A DNA stretch of 64,000 bases from NCBI RefSeq assembly GCF_003336245.1, contig NZ_QPHM01000001.1:744001-808000 (forward strand), written 5' to 3'. Below are positions 2,331 through 9,444 of the stretch, piece by piece. The notes beneath the pieces were generated by a model. The model worked only from the letters and a program-made list of their open reading frames with translations. It did not search any database and was not told the DNA's origin. Source of the stretch: Haloplanus salinus (GTDB lineage Archaea > Halobacteriota > Halobacteria > Halobacteriales > Haloferacaceae). The first letter of the stretch is position 1; every line of letters begins with the position of its first letter. The translations under genes and the position numbers were made by a program.

Positions 2331-4847
2331 TCAGTCGGCATCGGCCTGCCAGTTCCGCACCGTGTCGGGTCCGACGCCGTCGATTTCGTCCGCGAGCGAG
2401 TCGGGTTCGGCCGACTTCAGTCCGGATACGTCCTCCACGCCCGCCTCCTTCAGTTTCTCGGCCGTCTTCTCGCCGATGCCGTCGATGGCCTCCAGTTCCG
2501 TCCCCGCCTGTCGGGCCTGATACTCGCGGTAGTTACAGATGGGGCAGCCGAGGTCCCATGGCTCGCGGCCGTCGTCGTCGTAGGTGATGCGGATGCCCGG
2601 CAGACCGTGTTCCGCGCACGTCTCGTCGGTGAGTTCGGCGTCGCCCCGCCGGGGCATCGGCAGGGAGTAGTCGCAGTCGGGATAGCGCGTACAGCCGACG
2701 AGCCGACCGCCCGACCGGAGGCGCTTGATCGCGAGTTCGCCACCCCCGTCCTCGCCACACTCGGGACACGGACCGACGACCAAGTCGGGTTCCTCCTCCG
2801 CGGCCTCCGCGGCACACAGCGGGCAGCCGTGGACGAACGTCTTGCGCCCGGCGAGCATCTTCACGTCGGCGAGGCCGTGATCCGGACACGTCTCGTCTAA
2901 CAGGATCGGCTTCCCCGTCGACGGAAGCGGCAGGGTGAACTCGCAGTCCGGATAGCCGTCACAGCCGACGAAGTAGGAGCCGTGACGGCTCCGCCGGATC
3001 ACCAAGTCGTGGTCCGACTCGGGGCAGGGGCCGACGGTCTTGTCGGCTTTCAGCGAGTCGCGGAGGTGGTCGCCGAGTTCCGCCCGCGACTCCGTGAGGC
3101 GATCGAAGACGCGTGCCAGCATCTCGCGGGACTCGTCGGTCACCTCGTCGAGCGTCGCCTCGCCGCGTGCGATGGCTTGCATGTCCGCCTCCAACTGCGC
3201 GGTCATCTCCTCGCTGACGATGAGGTCCGCGAACTCCTCGGACGCCTCGACGACGCCGCGCGCGAGGCGGGTCGGCCGTGGCGGGTCGCCCTCGACGTAC
3301 CCCCGGTCGTACAGCTTCTGGATCACGTCGTGTCGGGTCGCCTTCGTCCCGATACCCATCCGCTCCATCGTCTCGATGAGTCGCGACTGGCCGTAGCGGC
3401 GCGGCGGCTGGGTCTGCTTGGCCTCCATCCGGGCGTCCGTCAGGGCGAGTGCCTCGCCCTCTTCGACGTCGGGGACGTAGTTCTCGCTCGTCGAGCGGTA
3501 CGGGTAGACGGCGTGGTAGCCGGGGTCGACCAGCCGTTTGCCGTTGGCTTTCAGCGAGGGGTCCTGCTCCTCGCCCGCGACGGTCGCCACGACGCGCAGG
3601 TGTTCCCACGTCGCCGCGTCCGCGACGGTTGCGAGGAAGCGCCGCACGACGAGTTCGTACACCTCCCACTCCTCGTCCGAGAGGTCGGCGGGCGACGGGA
3701 GTTCGTCGGTCGGATGGATCGGCGGGTGGTCGGTCGTCTCCTCGTCGCCCGCGGTAGGGGTGATGTCCTCGGCGTCGAGAAGCGAGGCAGCGTCGTCGCC
3801 GAAGCGCGGGCCGTCGGCGAGGGCGTCCAGCAGGTCCCGCGGCTCCAGATCCTCGGGGTAGACCGTGTTGTCCGTCCGGGGGTACGTGATGTAGCCGGCG
3901 GTGTAGAGGTCCTCCGCGATGCTCATGGCGCGCTGGGCGGAGTGGCCGATCCCGCTCGCAGCACGGATGAACTGCGTCGTGTTGAACGGCGCCGGCGGGT
4001 CGTCGGTCCGGGTGCGCCGCCGCACCTCCGCGACCGTCGCCGTCGACGCGCCGGCGAGGGCGTCGTAGACGGCGTCGGCCGTCGCCTCGTCCCAGACGCG
4101 GTCGGCCTCCGTGTCGTCGTCGTCGAGATAGAAGTAGCCCGCCTCGAACGTCTCGTCGTCCTTGGTGAGGTCCGCGAACAGTTCCCAGTAGTCCTCGGGG
4201 TCGAAGGCGTCGATCTCGCGCTCGCGGTCGACGATCAGCTTGAGCGTCGGCCCCTGTACCCGACCGACGGAGATGAAGTCGTCGCCGAGTTGGCGGGCCG
4301 AGAGGGAGAGAAACCGGGTGAGCGACGCCCCCCACATGAGGTCGACGATCTGTCGTGCCTCACCCGCCGCGGCGAGGTCGAAGTCGAGGTCGTCGGGGTC
4401 GGCGAACGCTTCCGTCACCTCGCGGTCGGTGATCGAGGAGAAGCGCACGCGGTCGATGGGGGCCTCCGCGTTCACCTCGCGGACGAGTTCGTACGCCTCC
4501 TTCCCGATCAACTCGCCTTCGCGGTCGTAGTCGGTCGCGATGTGGATGCGGGAGGCGTTGCGCGCCATGCGGCGGAGCGCGGCGACGATGTTCTCTTGTG
4601 TCGGGCGCTTCTCCACCTCGGCGGTGACGAGTTCGACGGGTTCGACGTCGCGCCAATCGCTGTACTCCGACGGGAAGTCGACGCCAACGACGTGGCCCGA
4701 GAGCCCGATGCACCGCTTGCCGCCCCACTTGTAGACGTTGACGCCGTTGACGCGGTCGGCGTCCGCGCTGCCGCCGCTCAGGATGTCCGCGATGCGGCGG
4801 GCGGCGTTGTCCTTCTCCGTGACGATCAGTTCGGGGCCGCGTTTCAT
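2331..4847 (-). CDS. topA: DNA topoisomerase I (type IA)
   Basis: Relaxes negative supercoils by passing one strand through a transient break. The 838 residues start with a Toprim domain (LIVTEKDNAARRIADIL, later TDYDREGELIG with the acidic metal ligands). The catalytic tyrosine lies in GYITYPRTDNTVY near residue 315. The C-terminal third has several Cys4-type zinc ribbons (for example CDGYPDCEF, CTRYPDCDY, GCPLC, GCPIC), then a helix-hairpin-helix (AIDGIGEKTAEKLKEAGVED). This arrangement is standard for haloarchaeal TopA. The start MKRGPELIVTEK is close to the Toprim domain, as expected. Confidence 0.96.
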   Translation of the reverse strand: MKRGPELIVTEKDNAARRIADILSGGSADADRVNGVNVYKWGGKRCIGLSGHVVGVDFPSEYSDWRDVEPVELVTAEVEKRPTQENIVAALRRMARNASRIHIATDYDREGELIGKEAYELVREVNAEAPIDRVRFSSITDREVTEAFADPDDLDFDLAAAGEARQIVDLMWGASLTRFLSLSARQLGDDFISVGRVQGPTLKLIVDREREIDAFDPEDYWELFADLTKDDETFEAGYFYLDDDDTEADRVWDEATADAVYDALAGASTATVAEVRRRTRTDDPPAPFNTTQFIRAASGIGHSAQRAMSIAEDLYTAGYITYPRTDNTVYPEDLEPRDLLDALADGPRFGDDAASLLDAEDITPTAGDEETTDHPPIHPTDELPSPADLSDEEWEVYELVVRRFLATVADAATWEHLRVVATVAGEEQDPSLKANGKRLVDPGYHAVYPYRSTSENYVPDVEEGEALALTDARMEAKQTQPPRRYGQSRLIETMERMGIGTKATRHDVIQKLYDRGYVEGDPPRPTRLARGVVEASEEFADLIVSEEMTAQLEADMQAIARGEATLDEVTDESREMLARVFDRLTESRAELGDHLRDSLKADKTVGPCPESDHDLVIRRSRHGSYFVGCDGYPDCEFTLPLPSTGKPILLDETCPDHGLADVKMLAGRKTFVHGCPLCAAEAAEEEPDLVVGPCPECGEDGGGELAIKRLRSGGRLVGCTRYPDCDYSLPMPRRGDAELTDETCAEHGLPGIRITYDDDGREPWDLGCPICNYREYQARQAGTELEAIDGIGEKTAEKLKEAGVEDVSGLKSAEPDSLADEIDGVGPDTVRNWQADAD

Positions 4848-4943: not shown

Positions 4944-5186
4944 CTACTCCGGGGCCCGGCGACGGATCCGAACCGGCTCCCGGTCGGGCAGGCTCACGCC
5001 GCCGACGTGGCGAACCGCCGGGTGGGCCGCCGCCGCGTCCGCCACCGCTTGCGGCGCGCGGACGATCACCCCCACGCCGGCGACGACGACGAGTTCGCCG
5101 CCCGCGGCGACGACCCGGTCGAGGACGGCACTGATCACCGCCTCGTCGCTCGACGGCTCGAACGCGAGCAGGTGCGTCCCGGTCAT
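4944..5186 (-). CDS. Small protein, last gene of the DUF2589-like module
   Basis: 80 residues, not recognised. It has a short alpha/beta pattern (LVVVAGVGVIVRAPQAVADA) and no cysteines or membrane segment. Its ATG overlaps the stop of the preceding gene by four bases (ATGA), so the two are translationally coupled and very probably made together. Sequence alone gives no function; context ties it to the module upstream. Confidence 0.6.
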   Translation of the reverse strand: MTGTHLLAFEPSSDEAVISAVLDRVVAAGGELVVVAGVGVIVRAPQAVADAAAAHPAVRHVGGVSLPDREPVRIRRRAPE

Positions 5187-6325
5187 TCGCCCTCCAGCAA
5201 CCGCTTCGCGTCGGCGAACCAGTTCTCGACCCGATTCGTCGACGCGCGGGTCACCTCGGCCACGTCCTCGATGTCGCGGTCGAGTAACGTCGTCACGTCC
5301 GCGACGCCCGCGTCCCGCAGGCGGTCGGCGTAGGTGGGACCGATGCCGTCGACGGCTTCGAGGTCGGTGGTGACGCGCTCCTCGGCCGCGTCCGATCCGG
5401 GTGGTGCCGACGTCGCGTCGGCGTCCACTTCGTCGGCGGTCGCCGGCCCCGCCGAGACGGTCAGATCGACGGCGGTCCCGACGGACACCGACTCGCCCGC
5501 GGGCGGGGACTGGCCGACGACGGCGTCGGCCGACTCGTCGTGCGTCTCGGCGTCGACGGCGCCCACCGTCAGCCCCGCGTCGTCGAGCGCCGCCGCCGCG
5601 TCGTCGAGGCCGAGCCCGATCACGCTCGGTACGTCGAGTTCGCGACGCTCCGAAACGGTCAGATCGACCGGCGAACCGGGCTCCGCAACGGACCGGGGTG
5701 ACGGGAACTGATCGCGCACCACGCCGTCTTCGTCGCCGGGTTCGGTCGTCACCTCGCCGACGGCGAAGCCCGCCCGCTCGACGGCCGCCCGGGCCTCGGA
5801 CAGCGACCGGTCGCGGACGTCCGGAATGGGATCGTAGACGGCCGTCTCCTCGGCGGGAGTCGCCGGCCGGAGGTCGAAACGGAGCGTGCTCAACGCCTCA
5901 CGGTTCACCGGCTCTGCGAGGTCGGGAAGCTGGAATCGTGGGCCGTCGTCGCCGCCGACGACGTTGGCTTTGAGGTCGACTTCGACTCGGCCGACGGCGT
6001 ACTCGGCCGTCGAGAGGTCGTCGCGGGCGCTCGCGAGGGCGTCCCCGAGCGACGCGACGAGGCGGTCGGGGGCGACGCTCCCCCGGTCGGCTTCGAGGCC
6101 GTCGAGGCGCTTCCGGAGGGCGTCGCGTTCGACCTGCAGTCGGTCGACCTTCGTCCGGAGCAGGTCGCGCTCGGTCTCCACCTCGATCAGTCGGTCGCGG
6201 AGCTCGGTGTCGAGGTACTCCTTGGCACGGTAGAGCCCCTCCACTTCGCGGGCCTCGGCCCGGTCGAGTTTCGTGGCGTCAACGCGGGTGAGCTCCCTCG
6301 TGAACCGGAAGTCGTCGTCGGACAT
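5183..6325 (-). CDS. Coiled-coil / PASTA-repeat / helix-hairpin-helix protein
   Basis: 380 residues with a composite build. Residues about 1-75 form a charged coiled coil (LRDRLIEVETERDLLRTKVD and following). Residues about 80-150 carry a segment like the two upstream proteins (DRLVASLGDALASARDDLST then VGRVEVDLKANVV). Residues about 165-300 hold two PASTA-type repeats (IPDVRDRSLSEARAAVERAG and VPSVIGLGLDDAAAALDDAG, each ending in VDLTVS). The last 60 residues are a helix-hairpin-helix (LEAVDGIGPTYADRLRDAGV). There is no signal peptide or membrane segment, so unlike bacterial PASTA kinases it is probably cytoplasmic. Its ATG directly follows the TAG of the upstream gene. Confidence 0.75.
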   Translation of the reverse strand: MSDDDFRFTRELTRVDATKLDRAEAREVEGLYRAKEYLDTELRDRLIEVETERDLLRTKVDRLQVERDALRKRLDGLEADRGSVAPDRLVASLGDALASARDDLSTAEYAVGRVEVDLKANVVGGDDGPRFQLPDLAEPVNREALSTLRFDLRPATPAEETAVYDPIPDVRDRSLSEARAAVERAGFAVGEVTTEPGDEDGVVRDQFPSPRSVAEPGSPVDLTVSERRELDVPSVIGLGLDDAAAALDDAGLTVGAVDAETHDESADAVVGQSPPAGESVSVGTAVDLTVSAGPATADEVDADATSAPPGSDAAEERVTTDLEAVDGIGPTYADRLRDAGVADVTTLLDRDIEDVAEVTRASTNRVENWFADAKRLLEGE

Positions 6326-6709
6326 CTACTCGGGACCGGGAACGGGGACGATGTCGAGGGCGACGCGACTCGACGCCGCCACGTCGTAGTCGGTACGGGT
6401 CGTGAACTCGGGATCGGTGGGCGCGGCGACGAGCGTCGGCCGGTAGGCCCGAACCGCGCCACTTTCGTCGCGTTCGGGCCGTCCCTGCATCGACAGCGAG
6501 ACGTTCAGATCCGCTTCGACGCCGGCGAAGCGGAACCACGGCGTCTCGATGGGCGTCTCCAGGTCGCCGTTCTCGACCGCCCGCCGTACGTCGCGCCGGG
6601 TGGCGAGCGACGCGCGGTCGAGTTCGGTCTGTCCCTCCGCCACTGCGCGGGCGACGCCGGTGACGAGTTCGCCGAGGGGACGGGCGACCCAGCGTTCGGC
6701 GCCGCTCAC
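6326..6709 (-). CDS. DUF2589-like protein, short paralogue
   Basis: 127 residues starting at a GTG that overlaps the stop of the upstream gene (GTGA), the strongest start because nothing before it is family-like. The N-terminal helix [20 protein letters not shown] matches the helix [20 protein letters not shown] of the upstream protein, and the strand [13 protein letters not shown] matches its [11 protein letters not shown]. It looks like a shortened paralogue lacking the glycine-rich middle. The role is unknown. Resemblance to DUF2589 is from recalled family patterns, not a search. Confidence 0.65.
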
Positions 6710-7362
6710 GACGACCCACCCTCCGCCGGGCGCGTGATGACGTCGGGCACCGAGCGGTCGGGCGCCGGCTTGGGTACCAGCGTCGTCTGCAGCCGGCAGG
6801 CCGCGCTCGCGTCGAGGCCGTAGACGCGGCTGTCGTACTCGGAGTGGGTGCGGACGTCGAGTTCCACCTCGCGTTCGCCCTTGACCTCCTGTTTCTGGTA
6901 GCCGCCCTTCCCGCCGATGGAGAAGAAGCCGAGGTTGAGACCGACGCCACCGCCGCCGCCGTACTTCTTGCGCGACTGCTCGTAGGCGGTGCGCAGGTCC
7001 CGCGAGAACGTCGAGTCGCTCTCGACGCGCGTGCTTCGGGTGTGCCACCGCACCCAGAACTTGAGGTCGATCTCCGTCTCGCTGAACTCGTAGAACGTCG
7101 GCGTGACGCCGTAAGCCAGCAGGGAGAGGGGCTGGTCGTTCGTCAGCGTCGAGACGTTCGTGACGTTGCCGTCCGCGTCGGTCTCCTCGACGATGCCGAG
7201 GATGACGGCGCCGGCGTCGAGTTCCATGTCCGCGAGCGTCTGTGCGGTCTGGATCGAGTTGAGGTCGAGTGCGGTCTGCCCGTCGGCCACCGCCAGCGCG
7301 GCCTTGCGCACGAGTTCGGCGAACGGGATTTCTTTGACGATGTCGTTGACTGGATCTGCCAT
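6706..7362 (-). CDS. DUF2589-like protein, full-length; first gene of the module
   Basis: 218 residues starting at [18 protein letters not shown]; a farther upstream ATG is less likely because the family pattern begins here. The amphipathic helix [20 protein letters not shown] is followed by beta strands ([11 protein letters not shown]), a charged linker, a glycine-rich stretch ([20 protein letters not shown]) and a final strand segment. DUF2589 proteins in bacteria also tend to occur as neighbouring paralogues and have no known job. This gene heads a four-gene run with overlapping or abutting starts, which implies a single message and matched amounts of the products. Confidence 0.65.
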
Positions 7363-7512: not shown

Positions 7513-9444
7513 ATGGCAGTGCAAACGTCGGACGACCGTTCGAAGGGTGGGATCCTGGACTTCATTCCGGACGGAAGTACGATCCCCGACGAGACGTGGG
7601 CGAACAGACACAAGTACTTCATCGTCGCGGTCCTAGCTCACGTACCGGTTCTGCTGGCGATCGGGTTGGCCGAGGGGACGGAGTCGGCCGTGACGGGGAT
7701 GACCCTCCCGTCGATCCCGCTGGAGATGCTCCTGCTCGAACTCGGGGTCATCACCGCATTCGCCCTCGCGGCGGCGGTCCCGCGTTTGAATCGGCGGCTC
7801 CGAACGGTGCTGGCGGCCACGGGGCTCGCGTTCTGTTCGGGGACGCTGGTCCACGTGACCGGCGGGTACATCGAAGCGCACTTTCATTTCTTCGTCGCGG
7901 TCGGAGTCGTCGCAATCTACGAGGACTGGCTCCCGTTCGGCGTCGGCATCGGCTACGTCGTCGTCACGCATCTCCTCTTCGGGATGGTCGACCCGACACG
8001 GGTCTACAACCACACGGCAGCGCAGATGCATCCGTGGGTGTGGGGCTTCATCCACGGCGGGTTCGTGGCGCTGCTTGCGGGCGCACTGACGATCCACCTG
8101 AGTTCGATCGAACGGTCGCGACAGCAAGCGCGGAGCGAACTCGAACGGGCGCGGGAGCGCGCCGAACGGATCGACGATCTGCAGGAACGACAGGCGGAGA
8201 TCGAGGAAAAGCGGGAGGCGGCGGAGCAGCTCAAGGAGGAAGCCGAGCAGGAACGCCGCGAGGTCGAAGCGCTCAACGACCACCTCGAACAGAAAGCGGA
8301 GAGCTACCGGGAGGCGATGGAGCGAGCCGCCGCCGGCGACCTCACGGTTCGCGTCGATCCGACGAGCCGGAGCGAGGCGATGACCGACATCGCGGAGGCG
8401 TTCAACACGATGGCGGCCGACCTCGAAGGAACGGTCGCGCGGATCCGGACGTTCGCGGACGACGTCGCCGAGTCGAGCGAGGAGGTGACGACCGGGGCCG
8501 AGGAGAGCCAGACCGCCAGCGAGCAGGTCAGCGAGTCGATCCAGAGCATCTCCACGGACGCGGACTCCCAGTCGGAGAACCTTCGGGAAGTCGCGAGTGA
8601 GATGCAGAGCCTCTCGGGAACGGTCGAGGAGGTGGCGTCGTCGGCCGACGAAATCGCCACGACGTCACAGAAGACGGCCGAACTCGGCCGGAGCGGCCGG
8701 GAAGCGGCGACGGCGGCGATGACGGAGATGGAAGCGATCGAGGAGAAGTCCACGGAGACGACCGCGGAGGTCGAGTCGCTCGCGACCGAAATCGAAGAGA
8801 TCGGCGAAATCGTCGACCTGATCAACAGTATCGCCGAACAGACGGACATGCTGGCGCTGAACGCCTCGATCGAGGCGGCTCGCGCCGGCGAGGCCGGCGA
8901 AGGGTTCGGCGTCGTCGCCAACGAGATCAAAGGGCTGGCCGGCGAGGTGTCCGACGCGACCGACGAGGTGGAGTCGCTCATCGTCGACATTCAGTCCTCG
9001 GCCGAAACGACCGTCGACGACATCCAGGAGATGGGCGACCGCGTGTCCGCCGGCGCCACGACCATCGAAGAGGCGTTCGACGCGTTGGAGGACATCGCGT
9101 CGAACGTCGAAGAGTCGAATCAGACGATCCAAGAGATCAGCGCCGCGACCGACGAGCAGGCGGCGTCGACCGAGGAGGTCGCCAGTATGGTCGACGAGGT
9201 GGCCGGGGCGGCCGATCAGGTGAGCGACGAGTCCGAGAACGTGTCGGCGGCGGCCGAGGAACAGGCGGCGTCGCTCACGCAGGTTGCTCGAAACACGCAG
9301 ACGCTCGCCGAGCGGGCGGACGAACTGCAGACCCTGCTCGCCGAGTTCACGGTCCGACGGGACGAGACGTCCGTCGACTCGGCAGCGGGGACGATGACTT
9401 CGGTGTCGGCCGACGGCGGCCTCGGGCACTCGAACGACGACTGA
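7513..9444 (+). CDS. Methyl-accepting chemotaxis (haloarchaeal transducer) protein with His-rich membrane sensor
   Basis: Signals to CheA/CheW to bias the archaellum motor. The 643 residues begin with about six membrane segments (residues about 33-195) that contain many histidines, including the [15 protein letters not shown] motif near 118-131 and [12 protein letters not shown] near 172-183. A coiled-coil linker (195-300), a HAMP-like region (about 275-320) and a long signalling domain follow, with the conserved hairpin tip [20 protein letters not shown]. Methylatable Glu/Gln pairs flank the tip. The ATG starting [10 protein letters not shown] is chosen; the long upstream extension is antisense to another gene. 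The ligand is unknown. The histidines might hold heme or metal, but that is inference. Confidence 0.92.

Follow-up and report, generated by a model that had tools for sequence, protein, structure and literature searches.

A compact four-gene cassette of haloarchaea with DUF2589-related paralogues and an apparently undescribed organization

What do four tightly coupled genes of Haloplanus salinus encode, and do they travel and act as a unit? The genes, designated here A through D, all lie on the minus strand of the window, i.e. the whole stretch of 64,000 nucleotides that was analysed. Gene A (6706..7362) specifies a protein of 218 aa with a DUF2589-like domain, consisting of an N-terminal helix followed by β-strands that end in LVPKPAP, with a Gly-rich insertion. 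Gene B (6326..6709), which commences with a GTG codon, encodes a shorter homologue of A (127 aa), while gene C (5183..6325) encodes a 380 aa protein with a coiled coil predicted from its sequence, a Trypco2-like core, two PASTA repeats and a helix-hairpin-helix (HhH), and gene D (4944..5186) an 80 aa protein modelled with a ferredoxin-like β-α-β-β-α-β fold. Reading of the junctions in the sequence bore out the coupling by overlap or abutment that a first-pass annotation had described: the stop codon of A and the start codon of B share GTGA, the stop codon of B stands directly against the start codon of C (TAGATG), and the stop codon of C and the start codon of D share ATGA. The long Gly-rich stretch claimed for A was likewise found, and alignments showed it to be limited to modules with a single A, being absent from the version with two A genes. 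Together, the four genes represent a compact mobile cassette that apparently belongs to no described system, in agreement with the earlier suggestion of an undescribed system.

The relevance of this arrangement beyond a single strain, on which the earlier proposal depended, was assessed by reading gene neighbourhoods. All 23 distinct archaeal genomes read, the present one among them, had A, B, C and D together on one strand and in one cyclic order, with A in one or two copies, the observed orders being A-B-C-D, A1-A2-B-C-D or the cyclic permutation B-C-D-A1-A2 (gene D of locus L093 was confirmed by eye). The presence of all four genes in each of these genomes is conservation far beyond chance, and the gene order extends well past the strain studied, so that the earlier proposal survives the refuting condition that it had set for gene order. 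By our own count from the flanking genes, the module occupies ~11 different chromosomal settings; the 126 flanking genes fall into 81 families, and such sharing as there is occurs mostly among close relatives. In a first survey, 5 of the 12 genomes from the genus contained A, as did three further genera of the same family; in a class-wide survey (E<=1e-3), A was matched in 27 genomes out of 391, belonging to 11 of the 86 genera, one of these 27 matches (G210) being weak and probably spurious. The A loci of five genomes with a match (G156, G252, G287, G315 and G381) lie outside the 23 neighbourhoods read. A scan of genome contigs yielded only two near relatives, and one relative with a name is Halalkalirubrum salinum.

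Within the genus, the module adjoins topA in the present window and in four other species, with gatB on its other side in the present window and in three of these four, the left flank differing from gatB in L017. Where the module is missing, in six species of the genus, gatB directly neighbours topA or lies 0.1-1.6 kb from it. As the module is present near topA in five species and gatB and topA are neighbours or almost so in six, it is regarded as a cassette that is gained and lost within the genus. Two further genes were observed at this site. A methyl-accepting chemotaxis-type transducer gene (7514-9444, plus strand) is positioned divergently from the module, between it and gatB, and was not detected at this site in the other four module-bearing species of the genus. 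Several species of the genus, module-bearing or not, have a truncated-haemoglobin-like gene, placed either upstream of the module or next to gatB (L017 6287-6646, L018 5732-6091, L019 5913-6272 and L152 4192-4548).

Outside the archaea, a tblastn search of plasmids with A, through which alone the bacterial distribution is visible, returned a sole bacterial match, in the betaproteobacterium Sphaerotilus sulfidivorans. The operon on this plasmid presents another cyclic permutation, D-A1-A2-B-C, in which B, C and D were assigned by position, length and motif. Sphaerotilus A1 is 55-63% identical to most of the haloarchaeal A1 proteins compared, and A2 clusters with archaeal A2 proteins (tree support 97/100), on the basis of which the paired-A form seems to have moved between archaea and bacteria as one unit. 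The single-A form of the present window constitutes one separate clade (100/100), the exact root of which is unsure because a long branch joins it to the rest of the tree. The Sphaerotilus protein in the C position displays a coiled coil and a core of related appearance, and neither PASTA repeats nor an HhH were detected in it, so that these two elements appear to be accessories. Searches of a viral collection and of phage records yielded no copies of the module, leaving a viral structural origin unsupported.

Pairwise dN/dS values indicated that A through D are real genes under constraint, with A under purifying selection (0.09-0.11, similar to 0.12 for topA), followed by B (0.14-0.20), C (0.28-0.35) and D (0.30-0.69). 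D is therefore the fastest-evolving gene of the module, its upper value comparing with ~0.1 for A, and a changing binding partner could be the cause.

To which families do the products belong? No Pfam, NCBIfam or significant PHROGs match was obtained for A, B or D, and profile searches of PDB sequences with A, D and DUF2589 returned nothing significant. A and B share a helix motif (BLASTP, 56% over 27 aa), and comparison of deep profiles by hhalign revealed their homology at 98.6% probability (E 7e-16, 125 columns). The profile of A matched that of DUF2589 (a+b) at 90% (E 1.7e-6), and at 94.6% (E 7.3e-8, 138 columns) when a different sequence set was used. Among the controls, which comprised column shuffles, reversals and 14 unrelated real neighbour families, the highest probability was 4.6%, the 14 real families reaching at most 1.4% against A. 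An earlier comparison based on thin alignments had not recovered the link between A and DUF2589, indicating that alignment depth matters. At the level of sequence profiles, the paralogy of A and B and the relation of A to DUF2589 are thus well supported. The assignment to DUF2589 in the first-pass annotation stands for the most part: the profile links hold, and the Pfam gathering threshold of DUF2589 (PF11655) was reached by none of A-D, the closest of 15 A homologues scoring below cutoff at E=0.0055. Its claim of a helix common to A, B and C holds for A and B, the direct comparison of the C core with the A profile (hhalign) giving no match above noise. The fold of A and B is unproven, since the AlphaFold2 model of A, built from three sequences, was unusable (pLDDT 30).

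True DUF2589 was identified in 15 of the 391 genomes of the class-wide survey, distributed over four genera, and two genomes (G156 and G398) carry both it and the present module. In halophiles, the DUF2589 operon consists of DUF2589a, DUF2589b, an HhH protein, the N-terminus of which resembles the C core, and a protein of 103-112 aa with no family assignment; as a unit, these operons are apparently undescribed (L023 6343-8776, L024 7887-10306 and L025 7995-10500, and also L094-L098). On bacterial plasmids, the gene after a DUF2589 pair encodes a conserved protein of ~91 aa, again with no family assignment (L103 6134-8214, L105 6323-8108 and L106 6293-8165), which profile comparison related neither to D nor to the small protein of the archaeal operons. 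In Archaeoglobus fulgidus, the DUF2589-related cluster AF0414-AF0417 is upregulated during growth on lactate (PMC3949148).

Gene C is the only member of the module that Pfam recognizes, and the combination of PASTA repeats and an HhH in one protein, as previously proposed, was confirmed with both above threshold. The two PASTA repeats (PF03793, 8.6e-26) span residues 166-291 (5453..5830, minus strand) and resemble PknB PASTA structures. The HhH (HHH_5, PF14520, 3.8e-6; residues 321-374, 5204..5365, minus strand) scored 27.7 bits versus a cutoff of 27, with stronger scores in homologues, and was not detected in the C proteins of L082 and L088. Holin-like and HAMP-like family matches were rejected as below cutoff. 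It was also observed that the HhH of C in the window is ~40-45% identical over ~55 aa to the C-terminal HhH of topA of relatives (the corresponding element of topA in the window is located at 2331-2500, minus strand); this likeness probably represents general HHH_5 similarity, since modules distant from topA retain the HhH.

The conserved core of C (residues 82-162, 5840..6082, minus strand), composed of a helix, an E-x-DLK strand and an LSTxRF strand, includes the segment DRLVASLGDALASARDDLST...EVDLKANV, which is conserved across archaeal C homologues. When compared by hhalign, this core matched Trypco2 over its full length (50%, 64 columns, score 29.4 versus a control maximum of ~19.5); with the HhH protein of DUF2589 operons, it matched the N-terminal part at 43%. 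A and B aligned partially with Trypco2 (15% each, above controls), and the scores of A, B and DUF2589a against it were 25-27 versus a control maximum of ~19. The Trypco2 set consisted of proteins from plasmids that carry the annotation 'trypco2 family protein', collected by a seeded search that these annotations validated; no member of the module reached the Pfam threshold of Trypco2 (PF19631), the best E value being about 0.04. These alignments are suggestive of a C segment that is closer to Trypco2 than to DUF2589 proper. Through the profile links, A, B, the C core, DUF2589 and Trypco2 may be read as one distant superfamily, the inclusion of Trypco2 being likewise suggestive. Trypco2 is known as an adaptor domain of trypsin/MoxR conflict systems (PMC7159879, PMC10907252), and in L128 and L135 its gene lies beside those for MoxR and a trypsin-like protease.

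The AlphaFold2 model of D was of fair quality (pLDDT 79), and its fold matched ribosomal S6 permutants, many subtilisin prosegments (including 1spb_P, 2z58_B and 3cnq_P), the I9 inhibitor POIA1 (1v5i_B) and ACT-type domains, with E values of 2e-3 to 0.1 among the matches listed and none below 1e-3; the best matches, S6 and ACT-type domains included, had E values of about 2e-3 to 4e-2. In PDB sequences, the D profile found its best match, a non-significant one (E 0.58), in a proteinase K entry (residues 36-96), a segment which we take to be the propeptide. No sequence match of D to Inhibitor_I9 (PF05922) was obtained, and profile comparison of D with the small proteins of DUF2589 operons showed no relation. 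A propeptide-like role of D may be considered a lead provided by the predicted structure.

How might these products act? From gene coupling and co-inheritance, we infer that the products of A, B, C and D form one complex. Our preferred reading, held tentatively, is that of a cytosolic sensor/adaptor complex in which C is the scaffold and which controls an effector encoded elsewhere. A and B would co-assemble via their common helix-plus-strand domain, and C would oligomerize by its coiled coil and join A/B via its own related domain, with the PASTA repeats contacting clients or ligands and the HhH nucleic acid or protein. D would be a small regulatory or capping subunit, and the complex would control its effector, possibly a protease, in trans under conditions of stress or genetic conflict. 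The sensor/adaptor role is considered the most likely because Trypco2 is an adaptor for trypsin/MoxR effectors and because of the likeness of D to protease propeptides. No conserved gene for a protease, ATPase or effector was found beside the module in the neighbourhoods read, and Trypsin_2 and S8 peptidases did not correlate with module presence within the genus. Also weighing against this role are the Trypco2 link, which reaches only 50% by hhalign, and the modelled fold of D, which is a common one. A bolder extension, in which DUF2589, Trypco2 and A/B/C-core would constitute one adaptor superfamily and the module would be a hitherto undescribed, mobile and cross-domain system, a protease-less relative of the trypsin/MoxR conflict systems, with A/B/C and a propeptide-like D controlling a protease or other effector in trans, is regarded as rather unlikely.

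An alternative that we consider somewhat improbable is a structural or compartment-like assembly, in which A and B would polymerize to form a filament, a shell or a scaffold, organized by C and lacking an effector. Tandem paralogues with a Gly-rich stretch, the coiled coil of C and the lack of an enzyme in the module are consistent with such an assembly, as is the clustering of DUF2589 genes as paralogues elsewhere, e.g. AF0414-AF0417 (PMC3949148). However, patchy presence with gain and loss within a genus would be unusual for a housekeeping structure, the link to Trypco2 points to adaptors, and the PASTA and HhH modules of C suggest binding roles.

Also unlikely is an anti-phage or inter-element conflict system that senses infection and acts via A/B. 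The module is indeed mobile, patchy, cross-domain and, in Sphaerotilus, plasmid-borne, and it is related to the Trypco2 of conflict systems, but it encodes no toxic or nuclease domain and no defence neighbours were noticed at the loci inspected. PADLOC system models gave no match outside generic domains, and the PD-T4-6 matches to C were rejected as they derive from the PASTA repeats only. Together with the lack of copies in the viral and phage collections, these results leave the defence function suggested in the first-pass annotation unsupported. A transcription- or DNA-associated regulator, anchored by its HhH on DNA beside topA and influencing topology or repair, is very improbable: the resemblance to the topA HhH and the position beside topA in five species would favour it, but this neighbourhood is confined to one genus, and the HhH persists in other settings and escapes detection in the C proteins of L082 and L088 and in the Sphaerotilus protein.

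The module is significant in that literature on DUF2589 is almost absent, a single paper among 5.39 million searched mentioning it in passing. With a suggested tie of DUF2589 to Trypco2 and a cassette of strictly conserved composition, what had been orphan proteins become a system open to experiment in haloarchaea that are amenable to genetics, and one that seems to have been transferred between archaea and bacteria.

In comparison with known systems, the module shares PASTA repeats, in C, with the PASTA-repeat kinases PknB/Stk1, but C lacks a kinase domain, inspection by eye reveals neither a signal peptide nor a membrane segment in it, and its host is archaeal. The model of D matches the fold of the Inhibitor I9/subtilisin propeptide (TM about 0.6), a fold also found in S6 and ACT-type domains, although D stands alone, with no peptidase alongside and no sequence match. 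Unlike in DUF2589 operons, B and C of the module are on separate branches, the HhH partner C has PASTA repeats, and the small fourth proteins there do not match D; like the module, these operons comprise tandem paralogues of helix and strands, and in halophiles the genes next in line encode an HhH protein and a small protein. Finally, whereas no trypsin-like peptidase, MoxR ATPase or VMAP adjoins the module in the neighbourhoods read and no Pfam match to Trypco2 exceeds the cutoff, the module may resemble the Trypco2 proteins of VMAP/MoxR/trypsin systems, the C core aligning with them over its full length and A and B in part, above the real-protein controls.
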